Shown here: positions 222 to 6,547 of the stretch, one piece after another | Layout: each line of letters opens with the position of its first letter | How positions within the stretch are numbered: the first letter of the stretch is position 1 | Assembly (NCBI GenBank): GCA_036562265.1 | Contig: DATCKS010000602.1 | Coordinates: 1-6,925, forward strand | Length of the DNA stretch: 6,925 bases | Origin: DASVDK01 sp036562265 [NCBI: Thermodesulfobacteriota bacterium] | Lineage (GTDB): Bacteria > DASVDK01 | Reading direction: 5' to 3' | Position numbers and translations under genes: made by a program | Notes under the pieces: generated by a model | Seen by the model: only the letters and a program-made list of their open reading frames with translations | Databases searched by the model: none | Told to the model about the DNA's origin: nothing

Positions 222-634
222 CGTTCAACCGGCTCCTCGCCAAGGTCCTCGACCTCCTCGTCGTGGCGGCGCTCACGACCTTCCCCGGGTGGGTCGGCGA
301 CGCCGCCGGGCTGACCTACGCCCTCGTGGCCGACGGCCTCTTCGAGGGGCAGAGCCTCGGCAAGCGGGTGGTCGGCCTGCGCGTCGTGGGGGCGTCGGGC
401 CTTCCCTGCACGTTCCTCCAGAGCGTCCAGCGCAATCTCACCGTGGCGGCCGGCGTGCTCCTCATGCTGCAGCGCGTGCCGTTCGTCTGGTGGCTCTTCT
501 GGCTCGTCGGCGCGCTCGTCCTGGTGTTCGAAGCCTTCCTGGTGGCGACCGACGACGAGACGCTCAGGCTCGGCGACCGGCTCGCCGAGACGCAGATCGT
601 CGTCGCCCCGCGGCTCGGCGCGCCTCGTACCTGA
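218..634 (+). CDS. RDD-family integral membrane protein
   Basis: This is a 138-residue inner-membrane protein of the RDD family, whose exact role is often unknown; some members are linked to ion or solute transport. Family marks are visible. N4-R5...D12 (NRLLAKVLD) opens the first helix, GQSLGKRVVGLRVV at 44-57 is the central conserved loop, and LGDRLAETQIVV at 118-129 is the C-terminal signature. Hydrophobic segments lie near residues 10-22, 28-41, 74-86 and 90-110, the last with a WWLFWLV core. It is at the short end of the family, with a short loop between the first helices. I chose GTG 218 because GGAGG (209-213) lies 4 nt upstream and the RDD motif starts at once. An in-frame GTG at 158 would add an Arg-rich leader inside a hairpin. 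Its start overlaps the stop of the possible small ORF (GTGA). Confidence 0.85.
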   Translation: MTFNRLLAKVLDLLVVAALTTFPGWVGDAAGLTYALVADGLFEGQSLGKRVVGLRVVGASGLPCTFLQSVQRNLTVAAGVLLMLQRVPFVWWLFWLVGALVLVFEAFLVATDDETLRLGDRLAETQIVVAPRLGAPRT

Positions 635-645
635 CGGCCGACCGC

Positions 646-659
646 TCGGGCTGTCCCGA
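646..659 (+). repeat. Small hairpin after the RDD stop codon
   Basis: TCGGG (646-650) pairs with CCCGA (655-659) around CTGT, 12 nt past the RDD stop. With only 5 bp and just AAGGTTCC downstream, it is at best a weak terminator. Confidence 0.2.
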
Positions 660-666
660 AAGGTTC

Positions 667-695
667 CTGACGCGGTCGCGCGCCGGGTGTACACT
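667..695 (+). promoter_or_regulatory. Candidate sigma-70 promoter for the NAPE-PLD-like hydrolase
   Basis: CTGACG (667-672, four of six matches to TTGACA) and TACACT (690-695, four of six to TATAAT) are separated by exactly 17 nt. Transcription would start around 702-705, on or just before the ATGs at 705 and 708. The mRNA would have almost no leader, and no Shine-Dalgarno is present. An 8-nt palindrome GTGTACAC (687-694) sits across the -10 and could be a small operator half. Confidence 0.5.
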
Positions 696-704
696 CCGCG
701 CACC

Positions 705-1640
705 ATGATGACGCGACGCGTGTGGGGCGCTCCCGCCGGCTACCGGCCGACCGCCGTCTTTGCGGCGATGGTCGCGACGAACCTTCGCCGCACCGCCCCC
801 GCGCCCGGCGTCTACCGCCCCGCGCCGGCCGGCTCGCCCGGACAGGTCACGTACGTTGGCCACGCCACCTGCCTCGCGGAGCTGCCGGGCTTCACCGCGC
901 TCTTCGACCCGATCTGGTCGTCGCGGGTGATCCTGCCGAAGCGGCTCGTCGCGCCGGGCGTCGCGCTCGACGCGTTGCCGCCCGTCGACGCCGTCCTGGT
1001 GACGCACGCGCACCTCGACCACTGCGATCGCCCCTCGCTCCGGGCGCTCGCGCGCCGCGTGCCGTCGGCCGCGCTCGTCACCCCTCGCGGCTTCGGCGAC
1101 ATCGCCCGCGGTCTCGGCTTCGCCCGTCACGTCGAGCTGGCCATGTGGGAGTCCCGGACGGTGGGCGAAGGGCGGGTGACGCTCGTGCCGGCGCGCCACT
1201 GGGGGAAGCGGAGCGGCTGGGACAGGGTCAGGCGCGGCTTCGGCGGCTTCGTCGTGGAGGCGGGCGGCCGGGCCGTCATGCACGCGGGCGACACCGCCTA
1301 CTTCGGCGGCTTCGCCGAGATCGGCGCCCGCTTCCCGCGGCTCGACGTCGCCATGCTCCCGATCGGCGCCTACTCGCCGCCGGCCTTCCGCAGCGTGCAC
1401 TGCGACCCCGACGACGCGGTGCGCGCCTTCGTCGACCTCGGCGCCGCGCGCATGGTGCCGATCCACTGGGGGACGTTCGTCCTCTCCCTGGAGGACATCG
1501 ACGAGCCGATGCGGCGCCTTGCCGCGCTCGTCGCCGGCACGCCGCTCGAGGCGCGCGTCGCGCGCCTGCGCCACGGCGAGAGCGTCGTCCTCGATCCGCT
1601 GCCGGTCGCCCCCGCCGCTCCCGCGCCGCCCGCCCGGTAA
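705..1640 (+). CDS. MBL-fold metal-dependent hydrolase, NAPE-PLD/RomA-like
   Basis: This 311-residue metallo-beta-lactamase-fold protein most resembles N-acylphosphatidylethanolamine phospholipase D and its bacterial RomA-like relatives. The dinuclear-metal ligands are all visible: HAHLDH (H101, H103, D105, H106), H165 in ARHW, D196 in GDTAY and H254 in PIHWGTF. Family marks around them include YVGHATC (50-56), DPIW near 68-71, PIGAYSPP (219-226) with H232 and DPDDAV after it, and DEP at 266-268. No clear signal peptide is seen, so it is probably cytoplasmic or peripheral. The C-terminus is a Pro/Ala-rich tail. The start is ATG 705 (or 708); an in-frame GTG at 687 lies inside the putative -10 region. 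The family suggests a phosphodiester or lipid-amide substrate, but the real substrate cannot be read from sequence. A perfect palindrome begins at the base after its TAA. Confidence 0.85.
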   Translation: MMTRRVWGAPAGYRPTAVFAAMVATNLRRTAPAPGVYRPAPAGSPGQVTYVGHATCLAELPGFTALFDPIWSSRVILPKRLVAPGVALDALPPVDAVLVTHAHLDHCDRPSLRALARRVPSAALVTPRGFGDIARGLGFARHVELAMWESRTVGEGRVTLVPARHWGKRSGWDRVRRGFGGFVVEAGGRAVMHAGDTAYFGGFAEIGARFPRLDVAMLPIGAYSPPAFRSVHCDPDDAVRAFVDLGAARMVPIHWGTFVLSLEDIDEPMRRLAALVAGTPLEARVARLRHGESVVLDPLPVAPAAPAPPAR

Positions 1641-1664
1641 GCCGCGCGCCGATCGGCGCGCGGC
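1641..1664. repeat. Perfect 24-nt palindrome between hydrolase and double-HTH gene
   Basis: The half-site GCCGCGCGCCGA is followed at once by its exact reverse complement, with no spacer. It starts directly after the TAA of the hydrolase and ends 17 nt before the TAGGAT -10 candidate of the next gene, so it covers where that promoter's -35 would lie. It may be an operator bound by the double-HTH protein, a terminator stem for the hydrolase (no T-tract follows), or both. The symmetry is seen directly; the function is inferred. Confidence 0.6.
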
Positions 1665-1681
1665 GCGTCGTCGTGCTGCGA

Positions 1682-1687
1682 TAGGAT
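1682..1687 (+). promoter_or_regulatory. Candidate -10 element for the double-HTH gene
   Basis: TAGGAT (four of six to TATAAT) ends 7 nt before the ATG at 1694, which would place the transcript start at or near the A of the ATG. There is no good -35 at 16-18 nt, where the palindrome lies instead. The overlapping AGGA (1683-1686), 7 nt from the ATG, could equally be a Shine-Dalgarno, so the call is ambiguous. The ten bases TAGGATGGGG recur upstream of the minus-strand MBL gene. Confidence 0.35.
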
Positions 1688-1693
1688 GGGGGC

Positions 1694-2179
1694 ATGCACC
1701 AGCCGGGGCACCTCCGCCTGCGCGCCGCCCGCGAGGCGCTCGGTCTCTCGGATGCCGAGGTCGCCGGTCGCACCGGCCTTTCCCTCGCCGACTACGCACA
1801 CCTCGAAGCCAGCGCTGACGCAGCGCGGCAAGCGGTCGACCTGCGGCACCTGAGGCGCGTCTGCGAGGTGCTCGGGGTCGAGCTCTGGGACCTCCTCGAC
1901 CTCGAGTGCGGCTACTGCCGGGGCAGGGGGAAGCCGGCGCGAGAGCTTGCCCGGCGCGCGCGGCACGAGCTGATCCGCGCGCGCCGCGACGCGCTCGGAC
2001 TGGCCCGCGACGCGCTGGCCCGCCGCCTCGACGTGCGGATCGAGGCCATCGACTCGATGATGCGCGACCCGTACTTCCTCGACACCTGGCCCGCCGCCTT
2101 CGTCGAGGACCTCGCCCGCATGCTCGAGGTGCCGGCGCAAGCGCTCCTCGACGTTCCCTGCCCCCGGTGCTGGCGGTGA
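1694..2179 (+). CDS. Tandem XRE-like HTH protein with two CxxC motifs
   Basis: This 161-residue protein is made of two similar halves. Half one runs from LRAAREALGLSDAEVAGRTG (residues 9-28), through a recognition-helix-like SLADYAHLEA and RRVCEVLGVELWDLLDL, to C72-x-x-C75. Half two repeats the plan: IRARRDALGLARDALARRL (94-112), RIEAIDSMM, EDLARMLEVPAQALLDV, then C156-x-x-C159 two residues from the end. Each half has the spacing of an XRE/Cro-type HTH domain (an R-x-x-LGL first helix, an L-G-V or L-E-V turn, a closing LLD). The four cysteines could form one shared Zn site or two halves of redox switches. It probably binds DNA as an internally duplicated, pseudo-symmetric unit, which would suit a palindromic operator such as the one at 1641-1664. 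There is no membrane segment. I recognise no named family, and regulation of the adjacent hydrolase genes is inference. Confidence 0.75.
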   Translation: MHQPGHLRLRAAREALGLSDAEVAGRTGLSLADYAHLEASADAARQAVDLRHLRRVCEVLGVELWDLLDLECGYCRGRGKPARELARRARHELIRARRDALGLARDALARRLDVRIEAIDSMMRDPYFLDTWPAAFVEDLARMLEVPAQALLDVPCPRCWR

Positions 2180-2213
2180 CTTCGTGTCGCCGGCGGCCAT
2201 GGCAGGCCCCCGC

Positions 2214-3050
2214 CTAGAAGGTCAGCGCCTCACCGGGGTCGATCGGGAAGACCCGGGTGGCGCTCCCGTCGCCGAGCGCCGCCTGGTATTCCTGCGGCGT
2301 CCCCTTGAGGGCCGGGAAGGTGCCGTAGTGGATGGGAAGGGCGAATCTGGGCTTGAGCATTTCTCGTGTGGCGTAGGCGGCGTCCTGCGGACTCATGACG
2401 AAGTGGCCGCCGATGGGGATGAGGACGAGGTCGGGCTTGTAGTACTCGCCGATCAGCCGCATGTCGCCGAAGAGCCCGGTGTCGCCCATGTGGTAGAGGG
2501 TGAAGCCGTTCTCGAGTTCGACGATGAAGCCGACGGGCGTGCCGCCCGCGTAGACCCGCCGCTCCTTCGTCTTCGGATCGGTCACCACCACCTCGGACGA
2601 GTGCTCGGCGTGCACCTGGGTGATCTTGATCCGCGGGCCGGCCGGCGTGACGGTGCCGCTCTTGTTGAAGCGGACGGTCTGCTCCAGGGGGACCCAGCCC
2701 AGGGCCACCATCGTGTCGATCAGCCCGGCGTTGCCGAGCACCTTGGCGCCGGTCAGCCTGGCGAGTTCCGCGACGTCGCCGGTGTGGTCGCCGTGCCCGT
2801 GGGTGACGAGGATCAGGTCGACCTTGCCTATGGCGTCGAGCTTCCGGTACCGGTCGGGCGTCTTGGGGTTCTGGGTGAGGAAGGGGTCGATCACGATCAC
2901 GGTGCCGCTCGGGGAGGTGATCTTCGTCGCGGCCTGGCCGAGCCAGAGGACCTCGGCCTTGGCGTCCTGCTGGGCGCGCACGGGACCCGCCGCCAGCGTG
3001 AAGGTGGCCGCGCCGGCCAGCTTGAGAAACGCGCGTCGGTCGGTCAGCAT
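2214..3050 (-). CDS. Tat-exported MBL-fold hydrolase, UPF0173-like
   Basis: This 278-residue metallo-beta-lactamase-fold protein of the UPF0173 group starts at ATG 3050. The N-terminus has a twin-arginine signal: DRRAFLK at 4-10, a hydrophobic stretch LAGAATFTLAAG, then PVRA-QQ with likely cleavage after A26. Metal ligands are HGHGDH (H84, H86, D88, H89), H150 in AEHSS, D190 in MGDTG and H241 in PIHYGTF. Other family marks are DPFLTQNPKT (55-64), YAGGTPVGF (167-175) and IPIGGHFVMSPQDAA (211-225). UPF0173 proteins are usually shorter and lack a signal, so folding with metal in the cytoplasm and export by Tat is notable. The substrate is unknown. The start is firm, because AAAGGAGG on the minus strand (3062-3055) lies 4 nt upstream. 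It converges on the double-HTH gene with 34 nt between stops and diverges from polA. Confidence 0.88.
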   Translation of the reverse strand: MLTDRRAFLKLAGAATFTLAAGPVRAQQDAKAEVLWLGQAATKITSPSGTVIVIDPFLTQNPKTPDRYRKLDAIGKVDLILVTHGHGDHTGDVAELARLTGAKVLGNAGLIDTMVALGWVPLEQTVRFNKSGTVTPAGPRIKITQVHAEHSSEVVVTDPKTKERRVYAGGTPVGFIVELENGFTLYHMGDTGLFGDMRLIGEYYKPDLVLIPIGGHFVMSPQDAAYATREMLKPRFALPIHYGTFPALKGTPQEYQAALGDGSATRVFPIDPGEALTF

Positions 3051-3054
3051 GTCG

Positions 3055-3062
3055 CCTCCTTT
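3055..3062 (-). promoter_or_regulatory. Strong Shine-Dalgarno of the UPF0173-like gene
   Basis: AAAGGAGG reads on the minus strand 4 nt before the ATG at 3050. It is the best ribosome binding site in the window. It fixes the start and contrasts with the plus-strand genes that lack one. Confidence 0.85.
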
Positions 3063-3079
3063 GCGGGTGCCACGACCCC

Positions 3080-3085
3080 ATCCTA
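3080..3085 (-). promoter_or_regulatory. Candidate -10 element of the UPF0173-like gene
   Basis: TAGGAT on the minus strand would start transcription near 3073 and give a leader of about 23 nt holding the Shine-Dalgarno. No convincing -35 is found at 16-18 nt. The same TAGGATGGGG decamer precedes the double-HTH gene (1682-1691), which hints at a shared promoter type or regulator. Confidence 0.35.
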
Positions 3086-3106
3086 CTACGGGCCGAGGCC
3101 GCCCGG

Positions 3107-3135
3107 TTGACGCCCCGCGTCCCTCGTCTTACAGT
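3107..3135 (+). promoter_or_regulatory. Sigma-70 promoter of polA, predicted leaderless
   Basis: TTGACG (3107-3112, five of six to consensus) is followed by a 17-nt spacer and TACAGT (3130-3135, four of six). The usual start distance of 7 nt falls on the A of the polA ATG at 3142. There is no Shine-Dalgarno before the ATG. The sequence therefore predicts a leaderless mRNA. This is the clearest promoter in the window. Confidence 0.7.
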
Positions 3136-3141
3136 CGCGGA

Positions 3142-5916
3142 ATGGCCACCAGGCGGACGCTGGCCCTGATCGACGGCCACGCCTACATCTACCGGGCGTT
3201 CCACGCGATCCAGTCCCTGTCGAACTCGCGCGGGTTCCCGACGAACGCCGTCTTCGGGTTCCACTCGATGATCCAGAAGGTCCTGTCGGACATCCGGCCC
3301 GACGCGGCGGTCGTCTGCCTCGACGCGGGCGACTCGGGCCGGGTCACGGCGTACGCGGACTACAAGGCCAACCGCGCCCCGATGGCCGACGACCTGTCGG
3401 TGCAGATCCCCAAGATCCTGGCGCTGCTCGAGGGGTGGCGGCTGCCGACGCTCGCCATCGAGGGATACGAGGCGGACGACGTCATCGGCACGCTGGCGCG
3501 CAAGGCGGTCGACGCCGGCTACGACGTCGTGATCGTCTCCTCCGACAAGGACATGCTCCAGCTCGTCGGGCCGCACGTGCGGGTCTTCGAGGGGATGAAG
3601 GGCGTCCTCATGGCCGAGCCGGAAGTCGAGGCGAAGTTCGGCGTCGCGCCGGCGCAGGTCCCCGACGTGCTCGGGCTCGCCGGCGACGCCATCGACAACA
3701 TCCCCGGCGTGCCGGGCATCGGCATGAAGGGGGCGGCCGAGCTGATCCGGAAGTACGGCGACCTCGAGAACCTCCTCGCCCACGTCGACGAGGTCTCCGG
3801 CCCCAAGCGGCGCGAGAGCCTCAAGGCCAACGCCGAGACGGCGCGCCTGTCGCGCGAGCTGGCCCGCATCAGGACCGACCTGCCGATCGACTGCGACCTC
3901 GAGGCGTTCGCGCGCCGGGAGCCGGACGCGCCGGCCCTGGCGGCGCTCTACCGGGAACTCGAGTTCGGACGTGCCCTGCGCGACCTGCTCGAGAAGCACC
4001 CGGAGCTGGCCGAGTCCCCGCCGCCGGCCGGGCCGGCCCGGCCGCCCCACGCGGGCAACGGGGCGGCGGTTGGCGCCGCCCTGCCCGCGGTCGCCTCGGA
4101 CGCCGACGCCGGCCGTCCCTTCGGCTTCGCCCGCACGGCGGAGGACCTCGAGCGGCTCGCGGCCGACATCCGGGCGGCGGGGGCGGTCGCCCTGTACGCG
4201 TTGATCGATCGCGACGACGCCGTGCGCGGGACCATCGTCGGGCTCGCCCTGCACCCGGCCGGCCACCCGGCCCGGTACGTTCCGCTGCGGCACGAGGGGG
4301 CGCTCGGCAGCGCGGCGCCGGGACAGGCCTCGCAGGGCGACCTCGCGGCCCACCTCGGACCGGTTCTGGCCGACCCGGCGACGCGGGTGCTCGCGGCCGA
4401 GCTGAAGCCGGTGCTCCTCGCGCTCGGCCGCCTCGGGCTGCCGGCGCCGGCGGGGCCGCGCGACGACCTGTCGCTCGCCTCCTACCTCCTCGATCCGGGC
4501 AAGCGGCACGACCTCGACCACCTGGCGGCCGACCACCTCTCGGTCGCCCGGTCGCGTCCCGACCTCGGCTCCGGCGCCAGGGCGCTCCCGCTGGCGCAGC
4601 TGCCGGAGGACCGCGCGCGCGACGTCGCGTGCGAGTCCGCCGTGCTGGTGACCCGCCTTGCGGCCCGGCTGCTCCCGCGCCTCGAGCCGGAGGGGCTCGC
4701 GGGGCTCTACCGCGACCTCGAGGTGCCGCTCGTGCCGGTGCTCGTGAAGATGGAGCGGGCCGGCATCGCGGTCGACCTCTCGCTCCTCGGCCAGCTCTCG
4801 AAGGAGATCGCGGCCGAGCTGGAGCGGATCACCAGGGAGATCTACGAGCTGGCGGGGCAGCGCTTCTCGATCGGGTCGCCCATCCAGCTCCGCACGGTGC
4901 TCTTCGAGACGCTGAAGCTGCCGGTCATCAAGCGGACCAAGACCGGTCCCTCGACCGACGCCGACGTGCTCCGCCAGCTCGCCGCGCTGCATCCGCTGCC
5001 GGCGAAGATCCTCGAGCACCGGACGCTCGACAAGCTCCGGAGCACGTACGTCGACGCGCTGCCGCTCCTCGTGGACCCCGAGACGGGGCGCATCCATACC
5101 ACCTTCAACCAGACGGTGGCCGAGACCGGGCGGCTCTCCTCCGACTCCCCGAACCTCCAGAACATCCCGATCCGGACCGAGCTCGGCCGCCGCATCCGGA
5201 GCGCATTCATCGCCCCCCCCGGACACCGCCTCGTCTCGGTAGACTACTCGCAGATCGAGTTGCGGATCCTCGCGCACCTCTCGCAGGACCCGCTCCTCCT
5301 CGAGGCCTACCGGGAGGCGAAGGACATCCACGTCCGCACGGCCTGCCAGCTCTTCGACGTGATGCCGTCGGAGGTGACGCCCGATCAGCGCCGGCAGGCG
5401 AAGACGGTGAACTTCGCCGTCATCTACGGCATCGGGCCCTTCAGCCTCGCCAACGACCTCGGGATCGAGGTCAAGGACGCGCAGGCCTTGATCACGCGGT
5501 ACTTCGAGACGTACGCTGGCGTCCGTCGCTACCGGGAGCAGGCGCTCGCCGAGGCCCGGGCGACCGGCTTCGTGACGACGCTCTTCGGGCGCAAGCGATA
5601 CGTCCCCGACCTCAACTCGGACAACCGCAACGTGCGCGCGTACGCCGAGCGCGTGGCGCTCAACACGCCGATCCAGGGCTCCGCCGCCGACTTCATCAAG
5701 CGCGCCATGCTGGTCGTCGACCGGCGGCTCGCGGAGGAGCGCCTCGCCTCGCGGCTCCTCCTGCAGGTGCACGACGAACTCCTCTTCGAGGCGCCCGAAG
5801 CGGAGGTCGAGCGGGTCGGAGCGCTCGCCAAGGCGGCCATGGAAGGGGTGGCCAGCCTGACCGTGCCGCTGGTCGCCGAGGTCGGGGTCGGTCGGACGTG
5901 GGCCGAGGCCCACTAG
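3142..5916 (+). CDS. polA: DNA polymerase I, proofreading site lost
   Basis: The 924-residue protein (E. coli 928) fills gaps and removes primers in replication and repair. The 5'-nuclease domain (about 1-290) keeps D11, Y74-K75-x-N-R78, E110-A-D112-D113, SSDKD (133-137) and GDAIDNIPG (181-189). A Pro/Ala-rich linker lies near 290-325. The 3'-5' exonuclease fold follows, but its metal residues are replaced: the DTE site reads Y352-A-L354, the KYD site reads K422-P-V424, and the last site has V495 and S499 in place of Y and D. The polymerase domain (about 530-924) is intact: TGRLSSDSPNLQNIP, motif A VDYSQIELR with D701, motif B RRQAKTVNFAVIYG with K754, F758 and Y762, and motif C QVHDELLFE with D878. 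It should polymerise and nick-translate but not proofread, as in Taq. ATG 3142 fits the family N-terminus; the frame is open further upstream but non-homologous. Confidence 0.97.
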   Translation: MATRRTLALIDGHAYIYRAFHAIQSLSNSRGFPTNAVFGFHSMIQKVLSDIRPDAAVVCLDAGDSGRVTAYADYKANRAPMADDLSVQIPKILALLEGWRLPTLAIEGYEADDVIGTLARKAVDAGYDVVIVSSDKDMLQLVGPHVRVFEGMKGVLMAEPEVEAKFGVAPAQVPDVLGLAGDAIDNIPGVPGIGMKGAAELIRKYGDLENLLAHVDEVSGPKRRESLKANAETARLSRELARIRTDLPIDCDLEAFARREPDAPALAALYRELEFGRALRDLLEKHPELAESPPPAGPARPPHAGNGAAVGAALPAVASDADAGRPFGFARTAEDLERLAADIRAAGAVALYALIDRDDAVRGTIVGLALHPAGHPARYVPLRHEGALGSAAPGQASQGDLAAHLGPVLADPATRVLAAELKPVLLALGRLGLPAPAGPRDDLSLASYLLDPGKRHDLDHLAADHLSVARSRPDLGSGARALPLAQLPEDRARDVACESAVLVTRLAARLLPRLEPEGLAGLYRDLEVPLVPVLVKMERAGIAVDLSLLGQLSKEIAAELERITREIYELAGQRFSIGSPIQLRTVLFETLKLPVIKRTKTGPSTDADVLRQLAALHPLPAKILEHRTLDKLRSTYVDALPLLVDPETGRIHTTFNQTVAETGRLSSDSPNLQNIPIRTELGRRIRSAFIAPPGHRLVSVDYSQIELRILAHLSQDPLLLEAYREAKDIHVRTACQLFDVMPSEVTPDQRRQAKTVNFAVIYGIGPFSLANDLGIEVKDAQALITRYFETYAGVRRYREQALAEARATGFVTTLFGRKRYVPDLNSDNRNVRAYAERVALNTPIQGSAADFIKRAMLVVDRRLAEERLASRLLLQVHDELLFEAPEAEVERVGALAKAAMEGVASLTVPLVAEVGVGRTWAEAH

Positions 5917-5983: not shown

Positions 5984-6547
5984 ATGAGCCGGCCGCCCGG
6001 GGGACCCTCGCCGGCCGACCACGACCTGGTAACCAGGGCCCGAAACGGGGACCGCGAGGCGTTCCGGGTCCTGGTCGAGCGCTACGAGGGGCGGGCGTAC
6101 GCCATCGCGTTCGGCCTCGTGGGGGACCGCGAGGACGCGCGGGAGATCGTCCAGGAGGCGTTCCTCAAGGCATACCGCACGCTCGGCGGCTTCCGCGGCG
6201 ACTCGAGCTTCTACACCTGGCTCTACCGGATCGTCGTCAACCTGGCGATCGACGCGCGGCGCAAGGAGCACCCGTCTCCACTGGAAGCCCCTGACCGCCT
6301 CGAGGACCGGGATTCCCCGAGCCCCTCGGACGACGCCTACCGCAGCGAGCTGCGCGCCGCGATCCTGGCCGCCATCGACGACCTGCCCCCGGAGCAGCGG
6401 GCGGCGATCGTCCTGCGCGAGCTGGAGGGGCTGTCGTACGCGGAGATCGCGGAGGTGGAGCAGGTGCCGATCGGGACGGTGATGTCCCGGCTGTTCTACG
6501 CGCGCCGGAAGCTCCAGAACGCCCTGGCGCGCTACCGGGGCACGTGA
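5984..6547 (+). CDS. ECF-subfamily RNA polymerase sigma factor (sigma-70 family)
   Basis: This 187-residue protein has the two-domain ECF layout. Region 2 covers about residues 14-93, with NGDREAFRVLVERY (21-34), DREDAREIVQEAFLKAY (48-64) for core binding, and FRGDSSFYTWLYRIVVNLAIDARRK (70-94) for -10 melting and recognition. A flexible acidic, Ser/Pro-rich linker spans 95-119. Region 4 covers about 122-182, with LPPEQRAAIVLRELEGLSY and the -35-binding helix-turn-helix AEIAEVEQVPIGTVMSRLFYARRKL. It resembles RpoE-like ECF groups controlled by zinc-finger anti-sigma factors, and one is encoded next. It would direct RNA polymerase to stress-type promoters on release. The ATG at 5984 is the only sensible start, and no ribosome binding site precedes it. 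It lies 67 nt after polA. The target regulon is not visible beyond possible autoregulation. Confidence 0.95.
   Translation: MSRPPGGPSPADHDLVTRARNGDREAFRVLVERYEGRAYAIAFGLVGDREDAREIVQEAFLKAYRTLGGFRGDSSFYTWLYRIVVNLAIDARRKEHPSPLEAPDRLEDRDSPSPSDDAYRSELRAAILAAIDDLPPEQRAAIVLRELEGLSYAEIAEVEQVPIGTVMSRLFYARRKLQNALARYRGT

Follow-up and report, generated by a model that had tools for sequence, protein, structure and literature searches.

A 6,925-nucleotide stretch of DNA (hereafter the window) contains, at positions 1694–2179 of the forward strand, a real gene that starts with ATG and encodes a 161-residue protein with an XRE/Cro-type helix-turn-helix (HTH) domain, probably a divergent second HTH, and a CxxC pair at the end of each half. 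We tentatively read this protein, at a confidence that stays a little short of an even balance, as a small tandem XRE/Cro-type HTH transcription regulator in which the two CxxC pairs act as zinc knuckles. Support for the frame as coding comes from an in-frame match to Pfam HTH_3 (E = 1.6 × 10−9, in two stretches) together with the GC content at the three codon positions (0.815/0.506/0.907), which resembles that of the neighboring genes (0.66–0.76/0.45–0.57/0.95–0.97) and is slightly less marked at position 3.

Pfam assigns the gene immediately upstream (687–1640, + strand) to the metallo-beta-lactamase-fold hydrolases (Lactamase_B_2), and a second hydrolase of the same fold, likewise assigned by Pfam, converges on the HTH gene from downstream (2214–3050, − strand). 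Further along the + strand lie polA (3142–5916), a gene for an ECF-type sigma factor (5984–6547) and one for a zf-HC2 protein (6549 onward), while an RDD gene near the start of the window (about 218–634, + strand) probably begins with the GTG at 218. A search of the whole window against Rfam returned no match. We also observed a 13-bp exact direct repeat, GGAGGCGCCGTGA, at 48–60 and 209–221, whose copies flank a 161-bp stretch between the stop codon at 58–60 and the likely RDD start codon, and this stretch holds a strong hairpin at 137–163. The arrangement resembles the outcome of an insertion or duplication between a stop and a start codon that formerly overlapped.

A clear and a probable HTH domain

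To characterize the domains separately, we scored each half of the protein alone, taking residues 1–80 as half 1 and residues 82–161 as half 2. By its sequence, half 1 is clearly an XRE/Cro-type HTH: it exceeds the Pfam cut-offs for both HTH_31 (PF13560; 29.9 bits, cut-off 27) and HTH_3 (PF01381; 26.6 bits, cut-off 23), with HTH 1 spanning residues 8–64 (1715–1885, + strand), and the XRE-like character that a sequence-only reading had ascribed to both halves is here supported. Half 2, whose HTH 2 covers residues of about 93–149 (1970–2140, + strand), falls below the same cut-offs when scored alone (17.0 bits against 27 and 16.1 bits against 23, with E values of 0.0076 and 0.012).

Comparisons with HTH domains from elsewhere nevertheless placed half 2 above chance. 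Scored with a local profile of 16 HTH domains, which came from other genomes and had been found without the 161-residue protein, half 2 reached 13.4 bits against 11.9 for the best shuffled sequence (4967 scored of 5000 made), the match lying mainly in 22 residues (13–34 of the half). Among 67 collected HTH domains, half 2 scored highest with those of two loci, L106 and L107 (78 each), both of which encode RodZ above the NCBIfam cut-off, L107 by Pfam as well. The alignment with L107 runs over the full domain, from the first helix to the final LL, and its score far exceeds that of shuffled sequences (mean 26.3 ± 4.8, maximum 50, n = 3000), although it is favored by selection, since L107 was picked with a profile that contained half 2. 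For half 2 the XRE-like assignment is therefore moderately supported, by scores above shuffles and the alignment with the RodZ HTH but not by the Pfam cut-offs, and we consider a divergent HTH the probable identity of half 2. Sequence searches of solved structures gave no match with E < 0.1 for either the whole protein or half 2, the best for half 2 being a 434 repressor variant (E = 0.16); PHROGs matches were HTH regulators (best E = 5.6 × 10−8), and PADLOC returned weak matches only, the best being capH at 19.1 bits.

Having delimited the two halves, we examined how alike they are. The sequence-only reading had described the protein as internally duplicated, with halves that align end to end; we found instead that their local alignment requires gaps of 6 and 5 residues, that they share 30% identity (MAFFT), and that their score of 46 is ordinary for a pair of HTH domains. 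While this score is above that of shuffled sequences (mean 26.2, s.d. 4.8; 11 of 5000 reached 46), the 325 pairs formed by 26 comparison domains, which had been gathered by the Pfam model alone and independently of the 161-residue protein, had a median of 47, with 56% of pairs scoring at least 46. Against the same 26 domains, half 1 had a median score of 42.5 and half 2 a median of 34, with 11 and 4 of the domains, respectively, reaching at least 46, the score between the halves. Since independent pairs score equally, common HTH ancestry explains the likeness of the halves, and we rejected a recent internal duplication. What the halves appear to share beyond the fold is an ending, LLD-[LV]-x-C-x-x-C, which reads LLDLECGYC in half 1 and LLDVPCPRC in half 2, so that a CxxC does close each half, as had been claimed.

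Structure models, both predicted without an alignment of relatives, were of limited confidence. The full-chain model (pLDDT 61.0, pTM 0.28) was too weak to place the cysteines, with pLDDT below 50 at residues 62–82; the half-2 model was stronger (pLDDT 77.7, pTM 0.50), with helices at 2–31, 35–42, 53–63, 67–71 and 76–79 in the numbering of the half. Both models contain a long helix before and into HTH 2 (80–124 in the full chain, 2–31 in half 2) that fuses two helices an HTH should keep separate and that, as modeled, may keep the two CxxC pairs apart. Foldseek gave no row with E < 0.001 for either model, neither among the 8 rows for half 2, none of which was an XRE domain, nor among the 89 for the whole chain, where SinR came first (E = 1.4). 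With VIA-align, many XRE domains (3bs3, CylR2, SinR, DdrO, 434 Cro) aligned on residues between 16 and 75 of half 2 with Z up to 4.2, and the top row was an unrelated carrier protein (Z = 4.9).

Cysteine pairs, known families and the search for relatives

The protein has five cysteines, at residues 57, 72, 75, 156 and 159. The four reported earlier (72, 75, 156 and 159) were all correctly placed, whereas the fifth, Cys57, had been missed; it stands opposite an alanine of half 2 in the alignment of the halves. The first pair (Cys72 and Cys75; 1907–1918, + strand) lies in C-G-Y-C-R-G-R-G, a CxxCxGxG motif that we take to be the form of DnaJ-type zinc fingers, and the second (Cys156 and Cys159; 2159–2170, + strand) lies at the C terminus in CPRCWR, which presumably recalls the final knuckle of zinc ribbons. 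One chain thus holds two CxxC pairs, as expected of zinc knuckles, and by analogy both look like putative ones.

We then asked how often an HTH domain ends in such a pair. In none of the 67 collected domains, each taken with the 17 residues that follow it, did the final 25 residues of this segment contain a CxxC; the set includes near-copies (L066/L068 and L106/L107) and domains found with the 161-residue protein or the halves profile, its unbiased subset being 26. Of 80 HTH frames, a single one (L077) had a CxxC close to the domain end, in a span reaching from 8 residues before it to 25 after it. In L077 the HTH frame is followed by a zinc-ribbon-like tail (CPHC), a layout unlike that of the 161-residue protein. 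Judged from these sequences, the cysteine layout of the tandem-HTH protein is uncommon. The titles and abstract openings found in the literature name no tandem HTH–CxxC layout, which, from such parts of papers, is no proof of its absence in print.

Several known families combine some of these parts. XRE/Cro-C1 regulators, which are among the commonest bacterial repressors, mostly carry one HTH per chain and dimerize to read a palindrome; HTH 1 exceeds both cut-offs for this family (PF01381 and PF13560) and HTH 2 resembles it, but the CxxC at the domain end sets the protein apart from the collected members. Despite the likeness of half 2 to the RodZ HTH, the protein scores 24.2 bits with the RodZ model (PRK10856; cut-off 208), and does so through HTH 1, half 2 alone scores 13.7 bits with the RodZ HTH (PF13413) against 24.6, and the length of 161 residues compares with 334–340 for RodZ. 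MqsA-type antitoxins (TIGR03830, CxxCG_CxxCG_HTH) likewise join CxxC pairs to an XRE-type HTH, with both pairs N-terminal to a single HTH, and the protein scores 12.6 bits with their model (cut-off 61.8). The archaeal aMBF1 (TIGR00270) has zinc CxxC pairs and an XRE HTH arranged in a different order from the parts of our protein, which scores 15.4 bits with that model (cut-off 110). The lowest E value among NCBIfam models, 2.6 × 10−9, was that of Mobile mystery protein A (TIGR02612), obtained through the HTH with a score of 37.1 bits (cut-off 122.6). A true member of that family in our collection (L064, 149.2 bits) lies beside a Fic gene, whereas the 161-residue protein is encoded beside hydrolases, and we rejected this locus as a relative.

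Searches for orthologues covered contigs, plasmids, phages and whole genomes. With the protein as query, none was confirmed among 254 candidate stretches in genome_contigs or 53 in viral_contigs, and an alignment of the two halves as query gave 99 candidate stretches in viral_contigs, again with none confirmed. By tblastn, plasmids and phages held no match at E = 0.01, and plasmids at E = 10 yielded seven records, none spanning 80% of the query; the three that were read (all but H3, H4, H6 and H7) were a frame judged not to be a gene and two proteins with one HTH each and no CxxC. Among whole genomes, sampled from three phyla, the protein query matched in 0 of 4, in 23 of 140 and 8 of 150 at E = 0.01, in 2 of 90 from one class at E = 10−3, and, at E = 10−4, in 0 of 150 from the same phylum as the set with 8 matches and 0 of 61, while the halves profile at E = 10−4 matched in 8 of 377 and 14 of 349. 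The genome matches that were read included no orthologue, being generic single-HTH proteins or chance frames. Across 85 loci (L005–L033 and L064–L119) scored with our own profile, an HTH frame was present in 71 and absent in 14, and these loci supplied the 80 HTH frames considered above.

How much weight these negatives bear depends on whether the lineage of the window was sampled. A PolA search of genome_contigs gave 63 candidate stretches and four relatives (L001–L004), and in 282 genomes of the phylum to which the closest PolA contig belongs, the best PolA identity among the matches listed was 50% at full length and 54% over part. Because the best listed full-length identity is 50%, the genomes sampled probably do not include the window's lineage, and the missing orthologues are therefore weak evidence; the collections sampled yielded no relative that would show conservation of any feature. 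As in the window, polA has a match to an ECF-type sigma factor as its neighbor in 7 of 34 PolA loci (L001, L037, L039, L043, L050, L051 and L056), some of the others being too short to judge this neighbor, and four of the seven (L039, L043, L050 and L056) have an anti-sigma match too. This shared neighborhood suggests distant kinship only.

The region upstream of the gene

A perfect 24-bp palindrome, GCCGCGCGCCGATCGGCGCGCGGC, occupies positions 1641–1664, immediately adjoining the stop codon that ends the upstream hydrolase gene and lying 29 bp before the ATG of the HTH gene; it is a candidate for an operator or for a terminator-type hairpin. Its arm of 12 is longer than that of any other loop-free palindrome in the window, and among 200 sequences simulated with matching first-order composition none reached an arm of 12 and three reached 11. 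A search that allowed three mismatches found no second copy in the window. The palindrome can also fold into a hairpin of 10 pairs with a 4-base loop.

Between the palindrome and the gene we noted by eye a −10-like hexamer, TAGGAT (1682–1687, + strand), which a promoter scan of 600–3200 did not report, listing the polA promoter only. The hexamer belongs to a sequence, TAGGATGGGG, that occurs twice in the window, at 1682–1691 before the HTH gene and at 3076–3085 on the − strand before the second hydrolase gene, and none of 200 shuffles contained two copies. The polA promoter itself is a sigma-70-type match at 3107–3142 (TTGACG, 17, TACAGT). Its predicted −10 element ends at 3135, 6 bases before the ATG, so the polA transcript is possibly leaderless. 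The spacing from TAGGAT to the ATG of the HTH gene is identical, and from this equal distance we infer a transcription start at that ATG. If both transcripts start at the ATG, the center of the palindrome falls at −41.5, a position typical of class II activator sites, with which a poor −35 element would be expected. Alternatively, TAGGAT may function in ribosome binding.

Proposed mechanism and competing explanations

According to our preferred reading, the protein would be a DNA-binding transcription regulator whose single chain carries two XRE/Cro-type HTH domains, each closing at its last helix (LLD) and followed by a CxxC pair. The CxxCxGxG and CPRC motifs, together or separately, would bind a structural zinc and hold the end of each domain in place. 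Most likely the regulator would bind an inverted repeat, of which the 24-bp palindrome is an example, and so repress or activate its own promoter and perhaps also the hydrolase gene upstream. Of the parts of this proposal, the ORF, HTH 1, the cysteine positions and the palindrome are established and HTH 2 is moderately supported, whereas a bound zinc, an operator, autoregulation and contact of HTH 2 with DNA are what we only infer. Against it stand the position of HTH 2 under the Pfam cut-offs, the Foldseek searches without a significant row, the long modeled helix before HTH 2, the searches that yielded no relative and the ability of the palindrome to form a hairpin after a stop codon, and CxxC pairs can exist without metal.

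The same domain scores also fit an ordinary XRE regulator that would form homodimers and contact DNA through HTH 1 alone, half 2 being a decayed HTH that serves as a dimerization or structural tail. Only HTH 1 exceeds the Pfam cut-offs, half 2 has the lower median against the 26 independent domains, and its local-profile match is short; yet half 2 aligns with the RodZ HTH across the whole domain and retains the LLD-x-x-C-x-x-C ending, and we regard decay as plausible but unlikely. The five cysteines, four of them in CxxC pairs, would also suit a thiol redox switch, with disulfides at the CxxC pairs altering DNA binding, but the first pair has the CxxCxGxG form that we associate with zinc fingers and the flanking genes encode, by Pfam, hydrolases rather than redox enzymes, which leaves this reading improbable. 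More improbable still is a single-chain pseudo-dimer, in which two unlike XRE domains would be locked or released by one Cys4 zinc site formed by a CxxC from each half, the monomer sitting on the 24-bp palindrome as a metal or thiol switch of its own gene. For binding of a palindrome by a monomer, which the sequence-only reading had proposed, the palindrome at 1641–1664 is a candidate site and offers a concrete target.

The palindrome may, however, be unrelated to the protein and serve the upstream hydrolase gene as its terminator hairpin, an explanation that is compatible with each of the protein readings and that we judge evenly balanced between true and false. Its start directly after the stop codon and its strong hairpin agree with termination, and this reading is favored by the other arm-12 hairpin of the window, at 137–163, which likewise lies behind a + strand stop codon. 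Conversely, no T run follows the palindrome, a terminator scan did not list it, the fold of 1635–1700 is not clearly stronger than that of shuffled sequences (z = −1.37, with 23 of 200 folding equally well), and a perfectly symmetric 24-mer exceeds what a hairpin needs.

As a single orphan sequence, the tandem-HTH protein is at present of value as a lead. Should relatives keep the cysteine layout, it would represent a variant of the known XRE/HTH regulators. If the proposal is true, a two-HTH chain closed by CxxC would provide another route to a symmetric or near-symmetric DNA reader, one coupled to metal or thiol state.
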